DNA of 64,000 bases from Microvirga terrestris (GTDB lineage Bacteria; Pseudomonadota; Alphaproteobacteria; Rhizobiales; Beijerinckiaceae): assembly GCF_015694425.1 (NCBI RefSeq), contig NZ_JADQDN010000003.1:1-64000 (forward strand), in the 5' to 3' direction. Under the pieces are notes generated by a model. It was not told the origin of the DNA. It did no database searches and saw only the letters and a list, made by a program, of their open reading frames with translations. Position numbers and translations under genes: made by a program. Position 1 is the first letter of the stretch; each line of letters opens with the position of its first letter. Positions 3,812 through 51,425 of the stretch are shown here, piece after piece.

Positions 3812-4556
3812 CGACGCTCTCCCCGAGATAGACGGCGCGCACACGGGGATCGGTCGAGACCTGTTCGACCGTGCCTTCCGTGAACAGCGCACCATTGACA
3901 AGGACCGAGATGCGGTCGGCGAAGCTGAAGACCAGATCCATATCGTGCTCGATCAGCAGAACGGAAACGTCCCGCGGGAGCGCCGCCACCGTCGCCAGCA
4001 ATTCGTGACGCTCCGCCTCCGGCACGCCGGCAGCCGGCTCATCCAGAAGGAGCACGCGGGGCTTGCAGGCAAAGGCGACCGCGATCTCCAGAAGTCTCTG
4101 CTTGCCATAGGCCAGATTGGAGGTCCGCTCGTCGAGTACATCGGTCAGACGAAAGCGTTGTGCGATCTCGACGATCTCGTGGATGATCTCCCGCTTGCTC
4201 CCCGTCACGCGCCACCAGTCCCGTCCCCCACCCAGGCGCTCGGACACGGCAAGGCCGATGGTCTCAAGCGGGGTCATGGCCGGGAAGAGCTGGTTGATCT
4301 GGAAGGTGCGGGCGAGCCCACGCTGCACCCGCAACTCGGGACGCAAACCCGTGATCTCCTGCCCCTCCAGGAAGATCTGCCCGGATGTCGGTTTGATGAC
4401 GCCGGTGAGCAGGTTGATGAATGTCGTCTTGCCGGCGCCATTCGGGCCGATCAGCGCGTGGCGCGCACCCTGCTCCAGCTTGAACGACACATTATCCGTC
4501 GCGACGAGGCCGCCGAAGCGTTTGACGAGGCCTTTGGTTTCGAGAGCAATGGTCAT
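3804..4556 (-). CDS. livG: ABC transporter ATPase, LivG type
   Basis: This 250-residue ABC ATPase has Walker A GPNGAGKT near residue 40 and Walker B LLLDEPAAGV. It ends in the C-terminal VRAVYLGE segment characteristic of LivG. In place of the strict LSGGQ signature it shows NLAYGKQRLLEIA, the usual LivG variant. It forms the ATPase dimer with the LivF encoded immediately downstream. One base separates it from livM, so the operon is tight. Confidence 0.93.
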   Translation of the reverse strand: MTIALETKGLVKRFGGLVATDNVSFKLEQGARHALIGPNGAGKTTFINLLTGVIKPTSGQIFLEGQEITGLRPELRVQRGLARTFQINQLFPAMTPLETIGLAVSERLGGGRDWWRVTGSKREIIHEIVEIAQRFRLTDVLDERTSNLAYGKQRLLEIAVAFACKPRVLLLDEPAAGVPEAERHELLATVAALPRDVSVLLIEHDMDLVFSFADRISVLVNGALFTEGTVEQVSTDPRVRAVYLGESVDE

Positions 4557-4557
4557 A

Positions 4558-5592
4558 TCAAACCTCCCGGGCGGATGGTTTCGGCAGCGTTTCAGGGATC
4601 TTGGCCGAGCGACCGGCCATGCCCTTCCAGAACGTTCTCACCCGCTCCGTCAGGTGCTCGCGGCCGGCCAGCACGATGATGACCAGGATCAGGCCGATCC
4701 AGAACTGCCAGTATTGCGGCGTCCAGGCCGAGATCACGTCCTGCAGCACCTTGAACACGATGGCCCCGATGAGACCGCCATACAGATAACCGACGCCGCC
4801 GATCACGAGCACGAGCATCACGTCCGCGGAGCGGTGGAAGGCGAGCACATCGAGCGACACGAATTGCGTGGTCTGCGCCAGCAGGGCGCCGGCCACGCCC
4901 GCATACGCCGCCGCAAGTGTATAGATTGCCACGAGGCGACGATTGACCGGGATGCCGACAGCCCTGGCTTTCAAAGGGTTGTCACGGATCGAGCGCAGCG
5001 AAAGGCCATAGGGCGAGACGACGATCCTGCGTGCGATGATGAAGAGCAGGAAGGTCACCGTGAGACTGTACGCATAGGCCGTGGTGCCGAAGATGTCGAA
5101 CTCGAACAGGCCGAGGATGGGACCCATAGCGATCCCCTGGAGACCGTCCGCGCCACCCGTGAGCCAGGAGGCTTGGTTGGCGATCTCGCCGAGAACGAGC
5201 GCCACGCCCAGCGTCACCATCAGCTTGGTGAGATCGGACCCGCGCAGCACGAGGAAGCTTGTCACGAACCCTAAGATCGCTGCGGCGATGGCCGCTGCTC
5301 CCAGCCCCAGCAGCGGATCCGCAATCCCATCCCTGGCCAGAATTCCAGCCGCGTACGCCCCCAGCCCGAAGAACGCCGCATGGCCGAGCGATACAATGCC
5401 GGCATAGCCGAGGATGAGATCGAGAGAGAGCGCGAAGAGACCGATGATCGCGATCTCGTTCAGGATCAGATGGCGCTCGGGGAGGAAGTACAGGGTCGCG
5501 GCGGCGATGAGCCAAAAGGCAATTTCGCTAATGCCCCATCGCCCTCTCCGGACCAGGGTGGTTCTGACGTAATCGGCGATATTCGTCGACAT
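4558..5592 (-). CDS. livM: ABC transporter permease, LivM type
   Basis: This 344-residue inner-membrane permease has about nine hydrophobic segments and the LivM hallmark GYAGIVSLGHAAFFGLGAYAAG (positions about 60-82). GGVGYLYGGLIGAIVF follows near residue 280. ATG at 5592 is preferred over an upstream in-frame ATG at 5622, which would run into livH: the sequence AGGACC lies just before 5592 at normal spacing. With LivH it forms the transmembrane channel of the uptake system. Confidence 0.92.
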   Translation of the reverse strand: MSTNIADYVRTTLVRRGRWGISEIAFWLIAAATLYFLPERHLILNEIAIIGLFALSLDLILGYAGIVSLGHAAFFGLGAYAAGILARDGIADPLLGLGAAAIAAAILGFVTSFLVLRGSDLTKLMVTLGVALVLGEIANQASWLTGGADGLQGIAMGPILGLFEFDIFGTTAYAYSLTVTFLLFIIARRIVVSPYGLSLRSIRDNPLKARAVGIPVNRRLVAIYTLAAAYAGVAGALLAQTTQFVSLDVLAFHRSADVMLVLVIGGVGYLYGGLIGAIVFKVLQDVISAWTPQYWQFWIGLILVIIVLAGREHLTERVRTFWKGMAGRSAKIPETLPKPSAREV

Positions 5593-5611: not shown

Positions 5612-6466
5612 TCAGCGCGCACGTTCGAACAGCCCTTGCGGGCGCAGAACGAGGACGACGATCATCAGCGTATAGATGACGAAGGCGCCGACGCTCGGCA
5701 CATAGTACTTGCCGGCCACATCTGCGATGCCGAGAATGAGCGAGGCCAGAAACGGCCCGGTGATGCTTGTCGTGCCCCCGACCGTGACGACGATCAGAAA
5801 GTAGATCATGAACTTGAGGGGGAACGTCGGGTCCAGCCCGAGGATTTCCGCGCCGAGCGCACCGCCCAGGCCCGCAAGCCCGGAGCCGAAGGCGAAGGTC
5901 GCGGCAAAGATCAGGCTCACGTTGATGCCAAGCCCGCGAGCCACACGAGGATCGTCCACTGCGGCGCGTAAGCGGCTGCCGAACCGGGTCTTGGTCAGGA
6001 TGAGCTGCAGGGCGACCACAAGGGCGCCGCAGATGACGATGATGAAGCTGCGGTAGAGACCGACCTGAACGCCCATCACATCGATGCGCCCCTGGAGCCA
6101 GACAGGCAACTGGATCAGCTGCTGCTGCGAGCCGAAGCTGTAGTCGACAGCGGCGACCGCCATGAAGACGAGGCCGATGGAGAACAGCACCTGATCGAGA
6201 TGGCTGCGGGTGTAAAGACGCTTGTAGAGGGTCCGCTCCAGCACCAGACCGAGGATCGCCGGAATGATGAAAGCAAGCGGCAGGGTCGCCAGGAAGGGCA
6301 CGCCGCTCCGGTTCATCAGCACGGCCGTGACGTAGCCGCCCGCCATGGCGAAGGCGCCATGAGCGAGGTTGACGAAGTTCATCAGGCCGAGAGTGACAGC
6401 CAACCCGCAGGCCAGCACGAACAGCAGCATCCCGTAGGCAATGCCATCGAAGAGAATGGTGAGCAC
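5612..6466 (-). CDS. livH: ABC transporter permease, LivH type
   Basis: This 284-residue permease starts at a GTG codon and has about eight membrane segments. The LivH signature LMNFVNLAHGAFAMAGGY lies near residue 30 and GTTSITGPFLASLILGIADV near residue 230. It pairs with LivM. It lies 57 bp downstream of the first Liv binding-protein gene, across a strong stem-loop that probably lowers permease expression relative to the binding protein. Confidence 0.92.
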   Translation of the reverse strand: MLTILFDGIAYGMLLFVLACGLAVTLGLMNFVNLAHGAFAMAGGYVTAVLMNRSGVPFLATLPLAFIIPAILGLVLERTLYKRLYTRSHLDQVLFSIGLVFMAVAAVDYSFGSQQQLIQLPVWLQGRIDVMGVQVGLYRSFIIVICGALVVALQLILTKTRFGSRLRAAVDDPRVARGLGINVSLIFAATFAFGSGLAGLGGALGAEILGLDPTFPLKFMIYFLIVVTVGGTTSITGPFLASLILGIADVAGKYYVPSVGAFVIYTLMIVVLVLRPQGLFERAR

Positions 6467-26672: not shown

Positions 26673-27776
26673 ATGGAACGAAAACTGTTGCGTCTCGCTG
26701 CAGCCCTCGTCTTTGCGATGGTGAATGCCGGTTCGGCTGGCGCTGAGATCCTCATCGGCATGGCGGGAGCCCTTACAGGTCCCAATGCATATCAGGGCGA
26801 GCAGCAGCAACAGGGCGTAGAGCTGGCCATCGGAGACATCAACGCCGCCGGCGGCGTGCTCGGTCAGAAGTTGAGACTCATTTCTGTCGACGACGCCTGC
26901 GACGGCGGCCAGGCAATCGCAGCGGCCCACAAGCTCGTCGCCGAGAATGTAGCCTTTGTCGTCGGGCACCAATGCTCGGGCGCTTCCATTCCAGCTGCCG
27001 GCATCTATGAAAGAGCCGGGGTTATCCAAATGACGCCCGCCTCGACCAATCCGCGCCTGACGGAAGAGGGCCGCCCGAACGTCTTTCGTATTTGCGGCAG
27101 GGACGATCAGCAGGGCGCAATAGCGGGTGCCTATCTGGCAGCAAGGGGGAAAGACAGCAGGATTGCCATTCTCAGCGATGGCTCGGTCTACGGCAAAGGG
27201 CTGACCGAAGAAACCCGACGTCACCTCCGCAACAACGGTGGCGCCGAGACGCTCTATGACGAACTCGATCCGGGCCTGAGCGACTTCTCAAATCTCATCA
27301 TGAAGTTGCAGGCTGCCGGAATTCGGATTGTCTATTTCGCCGGATACTATCGGGAAGCAGCCATCCTGATCCGCAATGCACGTGAGCAAGGCTACAACCT
27401 TCAGCTGGTGTCCGGTGACAGCATAGCGAGCGAGGCCTTTATCCAGGTGACAGGTGAGGCCGGCGAAGGGACGGTCTTTACCTCATTCCGCGATCCGCGC
27501 CGAAATCCCGATGCGGCCGCTCTCGTCGAGCGCTTTCGGCAAAACGGGTTCGAGCCCGAAGGCTATACCCTCTATAGCTACGGCGCCGTTCAGGCCTGGG
27601 CTCAGGCGGTTGTGAAGGCCGGCTCCATTGAGCCACAAGCGGTGATAAGCGCCCTTCGTTCTAACGAGTTCGAAACCATTCTCGGGCGGGTCAGCTTCGA
27701 TGCCAAAGGAGATGTGCGGCAACCCGGCTTCGAATGGTTCATCTGGCGGAAAGGTCGATATGTCCCCTTGGAATAA
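26673..27776 (+). CDS. Liv-type periplasmic binding protein coupled to a sensor kinase
   Basis: This 367-residue protein has a signal peptide (MERKLLRLAAALVFAMVNAGSAGA) and then the Peripla_BP_6 start EILIGMAGALTGPNAYQGEQQQQGVELAIGDINAAGG. ATG at 26673 was chosen because GGGAGG lies 6 bp before it. No permease or ATPase gene is near; instead the gene is 24 bp upstream of a hybrid histidine kinase. The simplest reading is a ligand sensor presenting an amino- or aromatic-type solute to the kinase periplasmic domain. Import with another Liv complex is the alternative. Confidence 0.88.
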   Translation: MERKLLRLAAALVFAMVNAGSAGAEILIGMAGALTGPNAYQGEQQQQGVELAIGDINAAGGVLGQKLRLISVDDACDGGQAIAAAHKLVAENVAFVVGHQCSGASIPAAGIYERAGVIQMTPASTNPRLTEEGRPNVFRICGRDDQQGAIAGAYLAARGKDSRIAILSDGSVYGKGLTEETRRHLRNNGGAETLYDELDPGLSDFSNLIMKLQAAGIRIVYFAGYYREAAILIRNAREQGYNLQLVSGDSIASEAFIQVTGEAGEGTVFTSFRDPRRNPDAAALVERFRQNGFEPEGYTLYSYGAVQAWAQAVVKAGSIEPQAVISALRSNEFETILGRVSFDAKGDVRQPGFEWFIWRKGRYVPLE

Positions 27777-27800
27777 GGAAGGGGCTCGGCCCCTGTCAGC

Positions 27801-30800
27801 ATGCCCTTCTACCTGAGTGTCCGCTGGCGCTTGCTTCTTGCTTTTCTCGGCATCAGCGCCTTCGCAGTGCTGGCTGCGGCCACTGGGACATATGCCTTTC
27901 GCCAGATGGCCCATGTGATCGAGCGGATCACGGAACAGCGTGTCCCCTCTGCTCTCGTGGCTCTCGACCTTTCACGGCAAGCCGAACGCATTGTTGCTGC
28001 AGCGCCGACGCTTCTTACGGCCCGCTCGCAGGCACAATATCAGGAGATATCTGCAACCATTACCGCCGAAGTCGAACGTCTCGAAGCTCTGCTCGCCCAG
28101 ATCCGGAGCGAGGTTGATCCAGCGACGGTAACCGCCATGGAGCCAGCCGTCGCGGGATTGCGGCGCAACCTCACAGCACTTGCCGGCCTCGTGGCTGGAC
28201 GCCTCGCCGTAGCTGCGCAAAAGGATGCGTTGGTCCAGCGTCTGTCAAATGCAACCGTCGCGGCGCAACGCCTGATCGCCCCTGCCCTTGTGGTTTTGGA
28301 CGCCAAGTTTGCAACGGCTCGACGCATAGACCGTGGCGAGCAGACAAGTGCCGGCTTCCCGCAGCCTCCTTCGGTGATTGTGCAGGAGATTGCTGAAAAC
28401 CTTCTGATGCAGAAGGCGCAACTCGAATTCGCCTCGACCAGCGACGGCTTGCTCAAGGCGTCTCTGGCCGAGAAGCTCGCCGATATCTCGGTGATGAGCT
28501 TTCCTCTGAACCGCTCCATGGCGGCCCTGCGCCAAATCGCCTCCGAGTTGGCGGATCAGCGTCTGCGATCCCGTTTCGATCAGCGTATCTCGGATTTCGC
28601 CCGATTGACCGACGGACAGGACAGCATCCTGTCTGCAAGGAGGACCGAGCTCATCCTCCTGGCGGATGCCGAACGGGTTCTTGCGGAGAATGCCGGCCTT
28701 TCCGCGCAACTCACGAAAGCAGTCGACGGCCTTGTCACAATGGCCCGCGCCGACATCCGTGCCGCAAGCGGCGAGGTTTTGACGGCTCAGCGCATCGGCC
28801 GCAATATTCTGCTGACTGTCGTGTCTCTCAGCCTTCTGAGCTCCCTGCTCATCGTCTGGCTTTACGTCGATCGCAATCTCGTTGCGCGGCTGCAGAGCCT
28901 GAGCAACAGCATGCTGGCGATCGCCGGAGGCAACCTGCGGGCACCTTTGCCGGGGGATGGGGAAGACGAGATCGGGCAAATGGCAAAGGCTCTCGCTGTC
29001 TTCCGGGACACGGCGATCGAGGTCGAGGAAAAGAACCTGCGCGAGATTGCCGACGCCCGGCAACGGCTGATCGATGCCATCGAAAGCATCAACGAGGGCT
29101 TTGCCCTGTACGACGCCGAGGATCGACTCATCCTGTGCAACAGCCGCTACGAGGAGCTGCTTTACCCTGGCTCCGATGTTCCCATGGAACCGGGAACACC
29201 CTTCGAGGCCGTGATCCGGCGTGCGGCGGAGCGCGGTCTCATCATAGAAGCGAAAGGGCGGGTCGACACCTGGGTTGCTGAGAGGATGGCGCGGCACAGA
29301 AATCCGGTCGCGGCCGAGATCCAGCATCGCGACGGTAATCGCTGGATCCAGGTTTGCGAGCGCAGGATCGCAGGAGGCGGGACCGTCGCGGTCTACACCG
29401 ACATCACGGCAATCAAGCACCATGCGGCGCAGCTCGAGGTTGCCCGCGATGAGGCCATGGCGGCGACGCGGGCGAAAAGTCAGTTTCTCACGAACATGAG
29501 CCATGAGCTGAGGACGCCGCTGAACGCCATCATCGGCATCACCGAGATGCTCAAGGACGAGGCCGAGGAGACGGGAGATGAACCGCTGGTGGAACCGCTG
29601 GACAGAATCCGCCATGCCGGTACGCACCTTCTGACACTGATCAATGAAATTCTCGACCTTGCCAAGATCGAGGCGGGCAAGCTGGAGCTTCACCCGGAAG
29701 AGATCGATCTCGATGCCTTCATCAGAGAGGTTTCATTGACGGCTGAACCTCTTGCCAGAAAGAACCGCAACCATCTCAAGGTCGAGGTCGCGCCAGAGAT
29801 CGGCAGGATGCAGACCGATCCCGTACGCCTGCGACAGGTATTGCTTAATCTGCTGAGCAATGCCTGCAAGTTCACGAAAGACGGAGTTGTGACAATAAGG
29901 GCTTCTCGATTCGTGGATCGAGGAGGAGACACGATAACGATCGCCGTGCAGGATACGGGTATCGGCATGACGACAGAGCAATGCGACAAGCTTTTCCAGG
30001 AGTTCAGCCAGGCGGACAGCACGACGACACGAAAATTCGGGGGAACCGGGCTCGGACTTTCCATCAGCCGCCGGCTTTGTCGCGTCATGGGTGGCGACAT
30101 TAACGTGCAAAGCGTCGTGGATGTCGGCAGCACCTTCACGGTTTCAGTGCCGGCGGGCGGAGTGGTGGGCCCTCCCAGAAGACGCTCCAGCGCTGGAAGC
30201 CCTTCATTGATCCTGCAACCTCTCGGGCGAGGAAGACGCGCGCTGATCGTCGATGATGAGGCGACGTCGCGGGAGATCCTGCGCCAGATCCTGACGCGTG
30301 AGGGATTCGAAGTGGCGACGGCCGAGAGCGGCCAGCAAGGCATCGAGATCGCCCGTGAGATCCATCCGTCAGTGATTACCCTGGATGTCCTGATGCCGGA
30401 ATTCGATGGCTGGAGCACCCTCCAGCAGTTGAAGCGCGATCCTGAGCTTCAGGATATCCCGGTCATCATGGTAACGATCGTCGACGAGGAGAATCAGGCA
30501 TACGCCCTCGGGGCCGCAGCCTATCTGACGAAGCCAGTCAGCCGCGAGGGTCTCCTGAAGGCTCTCGCCAACTGCCGAACCGAACATGCCAGCTCTCGGG
30601 TTCTGGTTGTGGAGGATGACCCGCACACCCGGGGATGGCTTGCCCGGATTCTGCGTGAGGACGGGTGGGAGGTGGCCGAAGCCGAGAACGGGCGGGTGGC
30701 ACTGGACCGACTCCCGCTCGTCAAGCCCGATATCATTCTCCTCGACCTGATCATGCCGGAGATGGACGGATTCGAGTTCGTCGATGAAATCCATCGAAAC

Positions 30801-30998
30801 GAGGAGACGCGGCATCTTCCTCTTATCGTGCTGACGGCGGCCGACGTGGACGAGGAAGCCCAGCGGCGCCTGAGTGGCGGCATTCGAAGGATCCTGCGCA
30901 AGAAACTCGGCGAGCGGGATGAGGTTCTCGCCACTTTGCGGGATGTCATCGCCGATTGTCTGCGACTCGGACGACTGGAACACGAGGAGCGAATGTGA
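27801..30998 (+). CDS. Hybrid sensor histidine kinase (HAMP, PAS, HisKA, HATPase, two receivers)
   Basis: This 1065-residue inner-membrane kinase has TM1 at ~10-31, a helical periplasmic domain of about 300 residues and TM2 at ~336-356. HAMP follows at ~357-408 and a PAS domain at ~418-535. The HisKA phosphoacceptor is His568 (NMSHELRTPLNAIIG). The HATPase domain lies at ~680-795 (DTGIGM, GGTGLGLSISRRL). REC1 has phosphoacceptor Asp862 (LDVLMPEFDG) and a TKP lysine. REC2 has Asp982 (LDLIMPEMDG), but the conserved KP is replaced by LRKK. It lies between the binding protein and a response-regulator cyclase and probably turns ligand occupancy into cAMP output. Confidence 0.93.
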   Translation: MPFYLSVRWRLLLAFLGISAFAVLAAATGTYAFRQMAHVIERITEQRVPSALVALDLSRQAERIVAAAPTLLTARSQAQYQEISATITAEVERLEALLAQIRSEVDPATVTAMEPAVAGLRRNLTALAGLVAGRLAVAAQKDALVQRLSNATVAAQRLIAPALVVLDAKFATARRIDRGEQTSAGFPQPPSVIVQEIAENLLMQKAQLEFASTSDGLLKASLAEKLADISVMSFPLNRSMAALRQIASELADQRLRSRFDQRISDFARLTDGQDSILSARRTELILLADAERVLAENAGLSAQLTKAVDGLVTMARADIRAASGEVLTAQRIGRNILLTVVSLSLLSSLLIVWLYVDRNLVARLQSLSNSMLAIAGGNLRAPLPGDGEDEIGQMAKALAVFRDTAIEVEEKNLREIADARQRLIDAIESINEGFALYDAEDRLILCNSRYEELLYPGSDVPMEPGTPFEAVIRRAAERGLIIEAKGRVDTWVAERMARHRNPVAAEIQHRDGNRWIQVCERRIAGGGTVAVYTDITAIKHHAAQLEVARDEAMAATRAKSQFLTNMSHELRTPLNAIIGITEMLKDEAEETGDEPLVEPLDRIRHAGTHLLTLINEILDLAKIEAGKLELHPEEIDLDAFIREVSLTAEPLARKNRNHLKVEVAPEIGRMQTDPVRLRQVLLNLLSNACKFTKDGVVTIRASRFVDRGGDTITIAVQDTGIGMTTEQCDKLFQEFSQADSTTTRKFGGTGLGLSISRRLCRVMGGDINVQSVVDVGSTFTVSVPAGGVVGPPRRRSSAGSPSLILQPLGRGRRALIVDDEATSREILRQILTREGFEVATAESGQQGIEIAREIHPSVITLDVLMPEFDGWSTLQQLKRDPELQDIPVIMVTIVDEENQAYALGAAAYLTKPVSREGLLKALANCRTEHASSRVLVVEDDPHTRGWLARILREDGWEVAEAENGRVALDRLPLVKPDIILLDLIMPEMDGFEFVDEIHRNEETRHLPLIVLTAADVDEEAQRRLSGGIRRILRKKLGERDEVLATLRDVIADCLRLGRLEHEERM

Positions 30999-31123
30999 CC
31001 GGAACTCTCTACATCGAGGGCAATAAGGCCCTGAACGCCGGCTACTATGACACAAAACCGGCCGTCTTCGAGAGACTGCTTGAGACGACCGGCACGCTGA
31101 TCTGGGGTCGGAGTGTGTCATGA
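30995..31123 (+). CDS. Coupled 42-residue small protein between kinase and cyclase genes
   Basis: A GTG start overlaps the kinase stop codon (GTGA) and the TGA stop overlaps the cyclase ATG (ATGA). The frame therefore fills the 121-bp gap exactly. The product is 42 residues, starting MTGTLYIEGNKALNAGYY and ending WGRSVS, with no signal or membrane segment and no family I recognise. The double stop/start overlap is hard to explain by chance and suggests real translation. It could be a small regulator of the kinase or cyclase, or only a coupling device. Confidence 0.62.
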   Translation: MTGTLYIEGNKALNAGYYDTKPAVFERLLETTGTLIWGRSVS

Positions 31124-32166
31124 GCGGCGCTGGAGTCCGCATCCTTGTCGTGGATGACAATGAGGACAACCGGTATACGCTGACGCGAAGGTTGCAACGT
31201 GAGGGGTGGACGGATCTGGCGACCGCCGAGAATGGGCGCGAGGCTCTCACCCTGATTGCCCAGGAGCGCTTCGATCTCGTTCTCCTGGATATCATGATGC
31301 CCGAGATCAACGGCTACGAAGTCCTGAAGCAACTGAAGACGGGCTCGGCTACGCGCGACATCCCGGTCCTGATGATTTCCGCTCTGTCGGAGTTCGAGAG
31401 TGTCGTCCGCTGCATCGAACTCGGAGCCGAGGACTACTTGCCCAAGCCGTTCAACCCGGCGCTTTTGAGAGCCCGCGTGAGAGCCTGCCTCGAGAAGAAG
31501 AGGTTGCATGATCAGGAGCTCAGCTACCTGACCGAGATCGACCATCAGCGGCGTCGCGCGGAGGCGCTCCTGCATGCCATTCTGCCGTCGCAGGCGGTCG
31601 ACGAGCTCGAGAAGTCCCAAACCGTGACGCCCCGCCGCCATGAGGATGTGGTCGTGTTCTTCGCCGACATCGTCGGATTTACCGCCTATTGCGATCTCCT
31701 TGCGCCGGAGGAGATCGTCGCGAATCTTGATGTGTATGCTTCGACCTTCGAAGAGATCGCCTCGCACCATGGCCTTGAGAAGATCAAGACGGTTGGCGAT
31801 GGATTCCTCGCCACTGCCGGCCTGCTCCTGCCCAATCCGGATCCGGTGATGGCAAGCATCCAATGTGCCATGTCAACCATTGCATCCGCCCGTGATCTGC
31901 CACTGCCCTGGGATGTCCGCGTTGGCATCCACATTGGGCCTGTTGTTGCGGGTGTCGTTGGGCGGCAGAAGTTCAGCTTCGATATCTGGGGCGATACGGT
32001 GAATGTCGCCGCGCGGCTTGCCGGGCACGGCAGACAGAGCGGCATCAATCTGAGCGCCACAGCCTGGGAGCGTATACGCACGCGCGTCGATGCCACTCCC
32101 CTGGGACCTGTTCTCATCAAGGGCAAGGGCGCTATCGACGCCTACAGGGTTGCCCCTCCGGGTTAG
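31120..32166 (+). CDS. Response regulator fused to class III adenylate cyclase
   Basis: This 348-residue protein has a receiver domain (1-125) with phosphoacceptor Asp57 (LLDIMMPEING) and the KPF lysine. A helical linker carries HAILPSQAVDEL, like that of PAS/REC cyclases, and a class III nucleotide cyclase domain follows (~170-345). The cyclase has the metal Asp183 in FADIVGFT, the second metal Asp in VGDGF, the adenine-selecting Lys/Asp pair (KIKTVGDG and FDIWGDTVN) and the transition-state NVAAR Asn/Arg. All expected catalytic residues are present, so adenylate (not guanylate) cyclase activity gated by phosphorylation is likely. Confidence 0.92.
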   Translation: MSGAGVRILVVDDNEDNRYTLTRRLQREGWTDLATAENGREALTLIAQERFDLVLLDIMMPEINGYEVLKQLKTGSATRDIPVLMISALSEFESVVRCIELGAEDYLPKPFNPALLRARVRACLEKKRLHDQELSYLTEIDHQRRRAEALLHAILPSQAVDELEKSQTVTPRRHEDVVVFFADIVGFTAYCDLLAPEEIVANLDVYASTFEEIASHHGLEKIKTVGDGFLATAGLLLPNPDPVMASIQCAMSTIASARDLPLPWDVRVGIHIGPVVAGVVGRQKFSFDIWGDTVNVAARLAGHGRQSGINLSATAWERIRTRVDATPLGPVLIKGKGAIDAYRVAPPG

Positions 32167-50481: not shown

Positions 50482-51425
50482 GACCGTGCCCTCCTGTGAA
50501 ACGGGCCCGAGAGGCTCGGCACGATGCCGTTGCGCATGAAGATCATGGACACGATGATGATGAGCCCGAGCAGGAGATGCTCGTATTCGTGGAAGACCGT
50601 CAGCGCCTGCGGCAGCGTCACCAGAACGGCCGCTCCGACGATGCTGCCGACAATGGATCCAAGCCCACCGAGTACCACGATGGTGACGAGTTCCACGGAA
50701 TGAAGGAAGCCTGCCTGATCCGGGTTGATGAAGCCGTTCATGAGGGCCAGCGCCGAACCGGCAATCGAGGCATAGACGGCAGCGATCACGAAGGCCTGCA
50801 ATTTGAAGCGGGCGACATCGACGCCCACCACCTGGGCTGCCACTTCGCTGTCATGCAGCGCACGAAAAGCCCGCCCTGTCGGCGTCTCGTCCAAGTTGAG
50901 TGCAATCCAAGTGCCGATGAGGAGGAGAGCACCCGTCACCCAGTACCATGTGTAAGATCCGCTGACGCGCCAGCCGAACAGGGTCAGCCGCTCGACCGGC
51001 ATGCCGTCCGGTCCGCCAGTCCAGCGGCTTTCTGTCGAGATCACGAGCGCGACCAGAACGCCGAGACCGAGGGTCGCAATCGCGAGGTAATGCCCCCTCA
51101 GCCGCAGGATTGGGCGTCCTACCAGATAGGCGAGCACGGCAGAGAGAACGGCACCCATGAGAAGCGCCGCCCAGGACGGGATGCCAAGATGAGCCGGCCC
51201 GATGGCAACGGCATAGGCTCCGATCCCGAAGAATGCCGCATGGCCGAGACTGACCTGCCCCGCCTGTCCCATGAGGATATTGAGGCCGATGGCGGCCAGC
51301 GCCGACACCCAAACAAGCGACGCTACGCGGAAATAGTAGCTTGAGGGAAAGACGAATGGAAGAACGGCAATCACTGCTGCCAAAATGACAAGGGTCAGAT
51401 AGCGCTGGTTCAGGAGAGCACCCAT
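50478..51425 (-). CDS. livM: ABC transporter permease, LivM type (second system)
   Basis: This 315-residue permease has about nine membrane segments and the LivM motif GQAGQVSLGHAAFFGIGAYAVA near residue 55 and GGLGSIVGSIVGAAVLV near residue 245. It is 2 bp downstream of livH. Its partner LivH builds the other half of the channel. Confidence 0.92.
   Translation of the reverse strand: MGALLNQRYLTLVILAAVIAVLPFVFPSSYYFRVASLVWVSALAAIGLNILMGQAGQVSLGHAAFFGIGAYAVAIGPAHLGIPSWAALLMGAVLSAVLAYLVGRPILRLRGHYLAIATLGLGVLVALVISTESRWTGGPDGMPVERLTLFGWRVSGSYTWYWVTGALLLIGTWIALNLDETPTGRAFRALHDSEVAAQVVGVDVARFKLQAFVIAAVYASIAGSALALMNGFINPDQAGFLHSVELVTIVVLGGLGSIVGSIVGAAVLVTLPQALTVFHEYEHLLLGLIIIVSMIFMRNGIVPSLSGPFHRRARS

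Follow-up and report, generated by a model that had tools for sequence, protein, structure and literature searches.

A candidate solute-sensing operon of Microvirga terrestris that would couple a TorT/TorS-like input to a response-regulator adenylate cyclase and bears the apparent scar of a lost receiver gene

We analyzed an operon of four open reading frames (ORFs) in Microvirga terrestris (assembly GCF_015694425.1), which lies on the forward strand at positions 26673–32166 of a 64,000-nucleotide stretch of DNA (positions 1 to 64,000 of contig NZ_JADQDN010000003.1; hereafter, the window). An initial annotation, made from the sequence alone, had read this operon as a solute sensor with cyclic AMP (cAMP) output consisting of a Liv-type binding protein without a permease, a membrane hybrid histidine kinase with two receivers, a small ORF, and a receiver-cyclase with a complete catalytic set. 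All four ORFs were recovered at the positions it had assigned, and the following features were recognized in them.

26673–27776, forward strand: gene encoding a LivK-type solute-binding protein (Peripla_BP_6) of 367 amino acids (ORF and Pfam).
27801–30998, forward strand: gene encoding a hybrid histidine kinase of 1065 amino acids without HPt (ORF and Pfam).
27891–28799, forward strand: periplasmic sensor domain of the kinase, approximately residues 31–333, with a predicted TorS-type helical fold (Pfam and model).
29472–29678, forward strand: HisKA domain with the HELRTP box (Pfam and alignment).
30243–30566, forward strand: kinase receiver 1 (Pfam).
30585–30950, forward strand: kinase receiver 2 (Pfam).
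30995–31123, forward strand: small ORF of 42 codons with a GTG start, an in-frame deletion remnant of a stand-alone receiver gene of about 125 codons.
31120–32166, forward strand: gene encoding a putative response-regulator class III adenylate cyclase of 348 amino acids (receiver, long helix, and Guanylate_cyc).
31141–31482, forward strand: receiver domain of the cyclase (D12, D13, D57, S87, and K109).
31456–31581, forward strand: predicted continuous helix of 42 residues, cyclase residues 113–154.
31630–32151, forward strand: class III cyclase catalytic domain (D183, K223, D227, D288, N295, and R299).

The small ORF shares 4 bases with the end of the kinase gene and another 4 with the beginning of the cyclase gene. 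The domain assignments agreed with the initial annotation for the three large genes. The first protein matched Peripla_BP_6 (PF13458; E 7.5e-56) and has a hydrophobic N-terminus that looks signal-peptide-like by eye, and no PF02653 permease was found within approximately 18 kb of the operon (the nearest are at 5651–6454 and 50547–51335 of the window). In the kinase, Pfam detected TorS_sensor_domain, HAMP, PAS_7, HisKA, HATPase_c, and two Response_reg stretches; its order is a transmembrane segment, TorS-type periplasmic sensor, a second transmembrane segment, HAMP, PAS_7, HisKA (His568), HATPase, receiver 1 (Asp862), and receiver 2 (Asp982). No HPt was found in the kinase or elsewhere in the cassette using Pfam, and the three Hpt matches of the genome are located elsewhere. 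The fourth protein has an intact receiver and the full class III residue set. Both genes that flank the operon lie on the opposite strand: upstream, a gene of the mannitol-dehydrogenase type, and downstream, one of the pyridine-nucleotide-disulphide-oxidoreductase type; judging from its neighbours, the latter probably encodes dihydrolipoamide dehydrogenase. No described RNA family was matched within the operon in Rfam at E 0.1.

TorS_sensor_domain (PF21689) matched the kinase at 37.6 bits against a cut-off of 27, and the match covers the first 108 of the 275 positions of the family. A single-sequence search of the sensor against solved structures gave no direct match, and in a search with the sensor profile the TorS chains appeared at E 0.66–0.7, ranking directly behind an unrelated protein matched at chance level. 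On the other hand, when an AlphaFold model of the sensor (built from 15 sequences; pLDDT 86.2, pTM 0.70) was compared using Foldseek, ranks 1–6 were all TorS chains (E 1.1e-6 to 3.2e-5), four of them from TorS-TorT complexes. The Z scores of the TorS chains were 19.6–16.7, the best over 264 residues, compared to 15.1 for the best other family. Since Z scores of 14.5–15.1 were also obtained for the helical sensors of McpZ, McpS, and PilJ, part of the TorS score reflects a common helical arrangement. Comparison of the predicted fold is stronger evidence for a TorS-type sensor than sequence.

The binding protein scored 319 bits against NF011933, the curated branched-chain amino-acid model, below its cut-off of 477. 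Its best match among solved structures was Agrobacterium 3ip5–3ipc (E 4e-100), which we take to be the amino-acid/γ-aminobutyrate (GABA)-binding protein Atu2422. S79, T102, Y150, Y202, and D226 (mature leucine-binding-protein numbering), which presumably form the amino-acid backbone site, are kept in the window protein and in 18 of the 19 aligned Liv-type partners, the exception being that of locus L138. In contrast, positions 18 and 77, both Phe in 3ip5, are Gln/Gln in the 14 Microvirga orthologues; therefore, the ligand probably differs from that of Atu2422. These two positions are Ile/Tyr in the partners of Rhizobium, Pararhizobium, and Phyllobacterium and Gly/Trp in that of Ruegeria, and thus ligands may differ by lineage. 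For Microvirga, the residues hint weakly at a polar amino acid or similar solute. Atu2422 is reported to import GABA with the bra transporter (PMC3907764).

Response_reg and Guanylate_cyc (E 5e-38) were detected in the cyclase. Its residues D183, D227, K223, D288, N295, and R299 make up the complete class III adenylate-cyclase set, which we take to comprise two metal aspartates, a Lys/Asp pair of the adenine type, and a pair of Asn and Arg. Asp57, at the phospho-acceptor position of the receiver, is Asp in all 18 aligned rows, and 16 of the 18 have every one of the 11 catalytic and receiver residues that were checked (window included in both). The exceptions are L054, with Thr for Ser at the receiver switch, and L042 (8369–9478), whose cyclase has R, S, and E at the positions aligned with K223, D227, and N295 and is probably inactive or altered. 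In the cyclase model (pLDDT 88.5), a single helix (residues 113–154) runs from the last helix of the receiver towards the catalytic domain, as expected if the signal is passed through a dimer. The genome (4.2 Mb) has 18 Guanylate_cyc matches and 14 cNMP_binding matches, and the 14 cNMP-binding-domain proteins could serve as readers of cAMP. The genome makes heavy use of cyclic nucleotides.

It is improbable, in our view, that the output is something other than cAMP, with the catalytic domain being inactive, making another cyclic nucleotide, or acting by protein contact. The degenerate cyclase of L042 occurs in the same cassette type, and with 18 cyclase-domain matches in the genome the window cyclase might be dispensable; the window protein, however, has the complete residue set given above, and the ratio of its nonsynonymous (dN) to synonymous (dS) substitution rates against the sister locus L024 is 0.06. 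We hold cAMP to be the predicted output with good confidence. The same input is tied to a cyclase by a second route in genome G197, where a TorS-type sensor followed by HAMP and PAS_7 is fused to a class III cyclase domain according to Pfam (whole in L175, 721–3219; cut in L176, 1–2169). A third protein of that genome (L174, 1–1980) ends at the contig end just inside the cyclase domain, and its fusion was recognized by similarity only. Binding-protein genes are directly upstream of all three, Liv-type for L174 and L176 and NMT1-like for L175.

To the question of whether the gene order is conserved in relatives, the answer was affirmative. The order of binding protein, kinase, receiver or its remnant, and receiver-cyclase is kept in all 14 Microvirga orthologues, the window included, and these derive from the 14 of 48 genomes of the genus (including that of the window) that carry a cyclase at least 80% identical. 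Among the best 80 of 173 candidate stretches, the closest named relative of the cyclase was that of Microvirga sp. BT688 (95%). Beyond the genus, the identical order with an intact receiver was found in four further genera, in Rhizobium sp. T136, Pararhizobium sp. A13, Ruegeria lacuscaerulensis, and Phyllobacterium brassicacearum. The kinase of Pararhizobium sp. A13 is split into two overlapping ORFs (L022, 5791–6462 and 6309–9002), a possible frameshift or decay.

Cassette loci were collected from those best 80 stretches (78 loci) and from separate searches of relatives and of the genus, and loci duplicating others were dropped before counting. The kinase adjoins an output gene in 64 of the 89 loci examined; the remaining 25 were left uncounted (kinase not beside the output gene, or no output gene by the rule used). 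A single-domain receiver lies between kinase and output gene in 55 of the 64, and in 41 of the 49 whose output is a cyclase. The eight cyclase cassettes without it are those of the window, L024, L026, and L028, all with remnants, and L035, L055, L063, and L081; the kinase ORF of L035 ends in a receiver, and the kinase of L081 follows a single receiver. The ancestral system is a four-receiver cassette of a widespread type, with two receivers in the kinase, one alone, and one in the cyclase. The output domain itself varies: a SpoIIE-type phosphatase domain replaces the cyclase in the receiver-output proteins of L079 (8338–9990) and L204 (6627–7967) according to Pfam, and that of L091 (8767–9984) is SpoIIE phosphatase-like by similarity only. 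The upstream genes vary as well. In the 43 control cassettes, whose kinases have no TorS-type sensor (e.g., L023, 4564–5322), other sensor-type proteins were seen upstream: Tll0287-like in 7, HNOB in 5, V4R in 4, and ABC_sub_bind in 4. A chassis of kinase, receiver, and receiver-output preceded by varied stand-alone sensors looks like a general plug-in arrangement.

We then asked how closely binding-protein genes follow this sensor type. In the set found by starting from the cyclase, a binding-protein gene lies directly upstream of all 21 cassette kinases with a TorS-type sensor (19 Peripla_BP_6 and 2 DctP, the latter at L079 and L091), compared to about 8 of the 43 without one, a figure that sums the binding-protein families among the 25 of 28 Pfam families listed, with SBP_bac_1/SBP_bac_8 and Peripla_BP_6/Peripla_BP_5 each taken as the same members and that may be slightly higher. 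Fisher's test gave P 1e-10, uncorrected for relatedness, a value that overstates the independence of the loci because 15 of the 21 are in Microvirga; the 21 nevertheless span seven genera or groups. L138 was counted among them with a weak sensor match of 77 bits (threshold 60). Six cassettes were dropped from this count, three with the kinase at a contig edge (L037, L069, and L073) and three with no upstream ORF (L045, L095, and L141). For L028, L079, and L091, where the longest upstream ORF was antisense, another ORF was chosen manually, and for L023 the annotated gene was assigned manually. For L080, the gene upstream of the neighbouring kinase was used, which adds one binding protein to the control group, and four opposite-strand control ORFs (L063, L085, L090, and L140) were kept as found. 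The spacing between binding-protein and kinase genes was computed as 24 bases in 13 of the 14 Microvirga orthologues; in the 14th, L028, an antisense ORF had been picked, and its binding-protein ORF (4089–5192) is likewise separated by 24 bases from the kinase, which starts at 5217.

A second search, which started from the sensor and was blind to binding protein and cyclase, covered 385 genomes of the class and gave matches in 43. Nine strong loci (at least 130 bits) were obtained outside the genome of the window, of which eight were readable and one, L178, was cut by the contig end. A binding-protein gene is adjacent at six of the eight, upstream in L173 (which repeats L079), L174, L175, L176, and L177 and downstream in L179. 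Among the 31 weaker, mostly partial sensor matches (L182–L212), a Liv-type ORF is directly upstream in nine (L188, L196, L198, L200, L202, L203, L206, L207, and L211). Linkage is strong among close relatives of the window's sensor and weakens among distant ones. A scan of four of the weaker matches (L184, L194, L196, and L200) identified each as a chemoreceptor (MCPsignal) whose sensor region is TorS-like; the Liv-type ORFs just upstream of L196 and L200 suggest binding-protein-coupled chemoreceptors.

Several observations weigh against a binding protein that acts through the kinase on the cyclase. Most of the linked loci (15 of 21) belong to the window's own genus. No binding-protein ORF was found beside the strong loci L180 and L181 or upstream of L204 and L212, two kinase, receiver, and receiver-output cassettes with weaker, partial sensors, by similarity to three binding-protein families; such absence is weak evidence because at most five candidates were scored per genome and neighbours were labelled with these three families. 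The absence of an HPt from the cassette makes the phosphotransfer route via the kinase's own receivers uncertain. According to PMC11113362, 10 of 11 characterized couples of solute-binding protein and kinase have neighbouring or close genes, and two adjacent sets in P. aeruginosa show no detectable interaction, so gene adjacency is not proof of interaction.

These points bear on the alternative in which the binding protein serves transport, as an orphan or shared component that feeds a Liv-type permease, while the kinase and cyclase sense something else directly. The genome offers 37 PF02653 and 18 Peripla_BP_6 matches, and the related helical sensors McpZ, McpS, and PilJ, which rank next after TorS, include one, McpS, solved with malate or succinate bound; the four loci without a binding-protein ORF and the P. 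aeruginosa sets point the same way. However, the 24-base spacing is kept throughout the Microvirga orthologues, no permease gene is nearby, and two different binding-protein families adjoin one sensor type. We consider the transport explanation unlikely. From homology, fold, and gene linkage, the binding protein would act on the periplasmic domain of the kinase, which we state with moderate confidence because the adjacency evidence in PMC11113362 cuts both ways.

The 42-codon ORF, which the initial annotation had counted as a working part of the operon, proved to have a different origin. In 10 of the 14 Microvirga orthologues, its position is taken by a receiver gene of 124–125 codons, which overlaps both the end of the kinase gene and the beginning of the cyclase gene. 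The small ORF of the window aligns to the first strand of this ancestral receiver and to its Lys-Pro end and last helix, with the phospho-acceptor region deleted, and thus has no intact receiver with an acidic pair and phospho-acceptor Asp. In L024, this remnant is 40 codons long. The 30-codon remnant of L026 and L028, in contrast, retains a stretch deleted in the window and is without the one that the window retains. Since the two types keep different receiver stretches, the deletions cannot be nested. In a tree built from the three large genes, L024 is the sister of the window (0.98 for protein and 1.0 for DNA), and the pair is placed beside L025, whose receiver is intact, while L026 and L028 form a separate clade (0.999 and 1.0). 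From tree placement and non-nested deletions together, the middle receiver was lost twice within Microvirga, in independent events.

The remnants of the window and L024 differ with dN 0.286 and dS 0.364 (dN/dS approximately 0.79), whereas the ratio is 0.06–0.10 for the large genes of the same pair (dN and dS, respectively, 0.047 and 0.638 for the binding protein, 0.045 and 0.475 for the kinase, and 0.024 and 0.374 for the cyclase). Between L026 and L028, the remnant gave dN 0.115 and dS 0.205 (ratio 0.56); the flanking genes of both pairs are at 0.06–0.10, and intact middle receivers of five other pairs are at about 0.10–0.26. With rounded counts and a small sample of about 40 codons, the window/L024 remnant is compatible with a ratio of 1, a ratio of 0.5 gives P 0.10, and 0.2 is rejected at P 9e-5; for L026/L028, 0.2 is rejected at P 0.04. 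The scar thus appears to evolve nearly neutrally. Yet every remnant, in four orthologues, differs from the ancestral frame by a multiple of three and retains both overlaps, suggesting that only translational coupling is retained; the open frame may persist because it lets ribosomes that finish the kinase move on to the start of the cyclase.

A functional micro-protein, such as a regulator of the kinase or cyclase derived from the receiver ends, would also explain the open frame and the start and stop overlaps kept in all four remnant-bearing orthologues, and a dN/dS of 0.5 is compatible at P 0.10. We judge it very improbable: the remnant ratios of about 0.79 and 0.56 stand against 0.06–0.10 in flanking genes, 0.2 is rejected, and the two lineages retain different parts of the receiver. 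The peptide matched only its own genome and, weakly (35% over 31 residues), 1 of 148 other family genomes sampled, and neither Pfam nor NCBIfam has a family for it. A move of the lost receiver to another site was likewise rejected, the best match elsewhere in the genome being only 39% identical and the second receiver of the operon kinase 40%. The 42-codon ORF is, with high confidence on this comparative evidence, an in-frame deletion scar of a stand-alone receiver gene.

Taken together, these results lead us to favour, with some reserve, a TorT/TorS-like sensing module with cAMP output in which the middle receiver has become a scar. The gene order, domains, sensor fold, conserved residues, linkage, and deletions are borne out by sequence and models. 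The LivK-type binding protein would capture an amino-acid-like solute in the periplasm and dock on the hybrid kinase, a dimer, at its helical TorS-type sensor. The signal would run via HAMP and PAS to His568 of HisKA, and phosphate would pass to Asp57 in the cyclase receiver, whereupon the phosphorylated cyclase dimer, with the long helix joining receiver to catalytic domain, would make more (or less) cAMP. Ancestrally, a stand-alone CheY/DivK-like receiver between kinase and cyclase was probably a competing acceptor, a sink, or a relay step. In the lineage of the window, and independently in a second Microvirga lineage, it was deleted in frame, the remnant staying open and probably coupling cyclase translation to that of the kinase. 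Of the initial annotation, the solute sensor with cAMP output thus stands as the best reading by homology, fold, and gene linkage, while the small ORF drops out as a working part.

A broader proposal is more tentative, and we rate it slightly below an even chance: binding-protein-gated cAMP synthesis may be a real, widespread bacterial pathway in which the TorS-type sensor is reused with two kinds of wiring, phosphotransfer and the direct sensor-cyclase fusion of G197. It would operate within a general chassis of detached sensor (solute-binding protein, haem-NO-binding HNOB, Tll0287-like, or V4R), hybrid kinase, single receiver, and receiver-output (cyclase or SpoIIE), of which the middle receiver was twice lost in Microvirga. 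Solute-binding proteins are known to activate chemoreceptors, histidine kinases, protein kinases, and cyclic di-GMP enzymes, and adenylate cyclases are absent from the receptor families listed in the introduction of PMC11113362. If the proposed module is true, cAMP joins the outputs switched on by solute-binding proteins, and one of the genome's 18 cyclase-domain genes gains an input. That the middle receiver was lost twice amounts to a natural experiment on what a single-domain receiver does when it stands between hybrid kinase and output. For annotators, it is a caution that a short coupled ORF within an operon may be a scar and not a new peptide.

Among known systems, TorT/TorS/TorR, which responds to trimethylamine N-oxide, is like this operon in having a binding protein beside a hybrid kinase with the same sensor fold, and TorS-TorT complexes have been solved. 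TorS has a C-terminal HPt, and TorR is a DNA-binding response regulator. In contrast, the operon kinase has PAS_7 and two receivers with no HPt and falls outside the TorS equivalog (TIGR02956; 406 bits against a cut-off of 676.5), the binding protein is LivK-type and not known to be a relative of TorT, and the output is a receiver joined to Guanylate_cyc instead of a DNA-binding regulator. In LuxP/LuxQ of Vibrio quorum sensing, a binding protein signals via a hybrid kinase without transport, which is the likeness to the operon; the sensor fold is different, the HPt is a separate protein, and the output is DNA-binding. Cyanobacterial CyaC-like proteins are response-regulator class III cyclases that share the receiver joined to a class III catalytic domain, whereas the operon encodes its kinase and cyclase as two proteins and has for input a TorS-type sensor accompanied by a binding-protein gene. 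No operon of binding protein, hybrid kinase, and receiver-cyclase was found described in the titles and abstract openings among the literature matches listed, a result short of proof that none exists. What sets the operon apart is a putative TorT/TorS-like input joined to a response-regulator adenylate cyclase.

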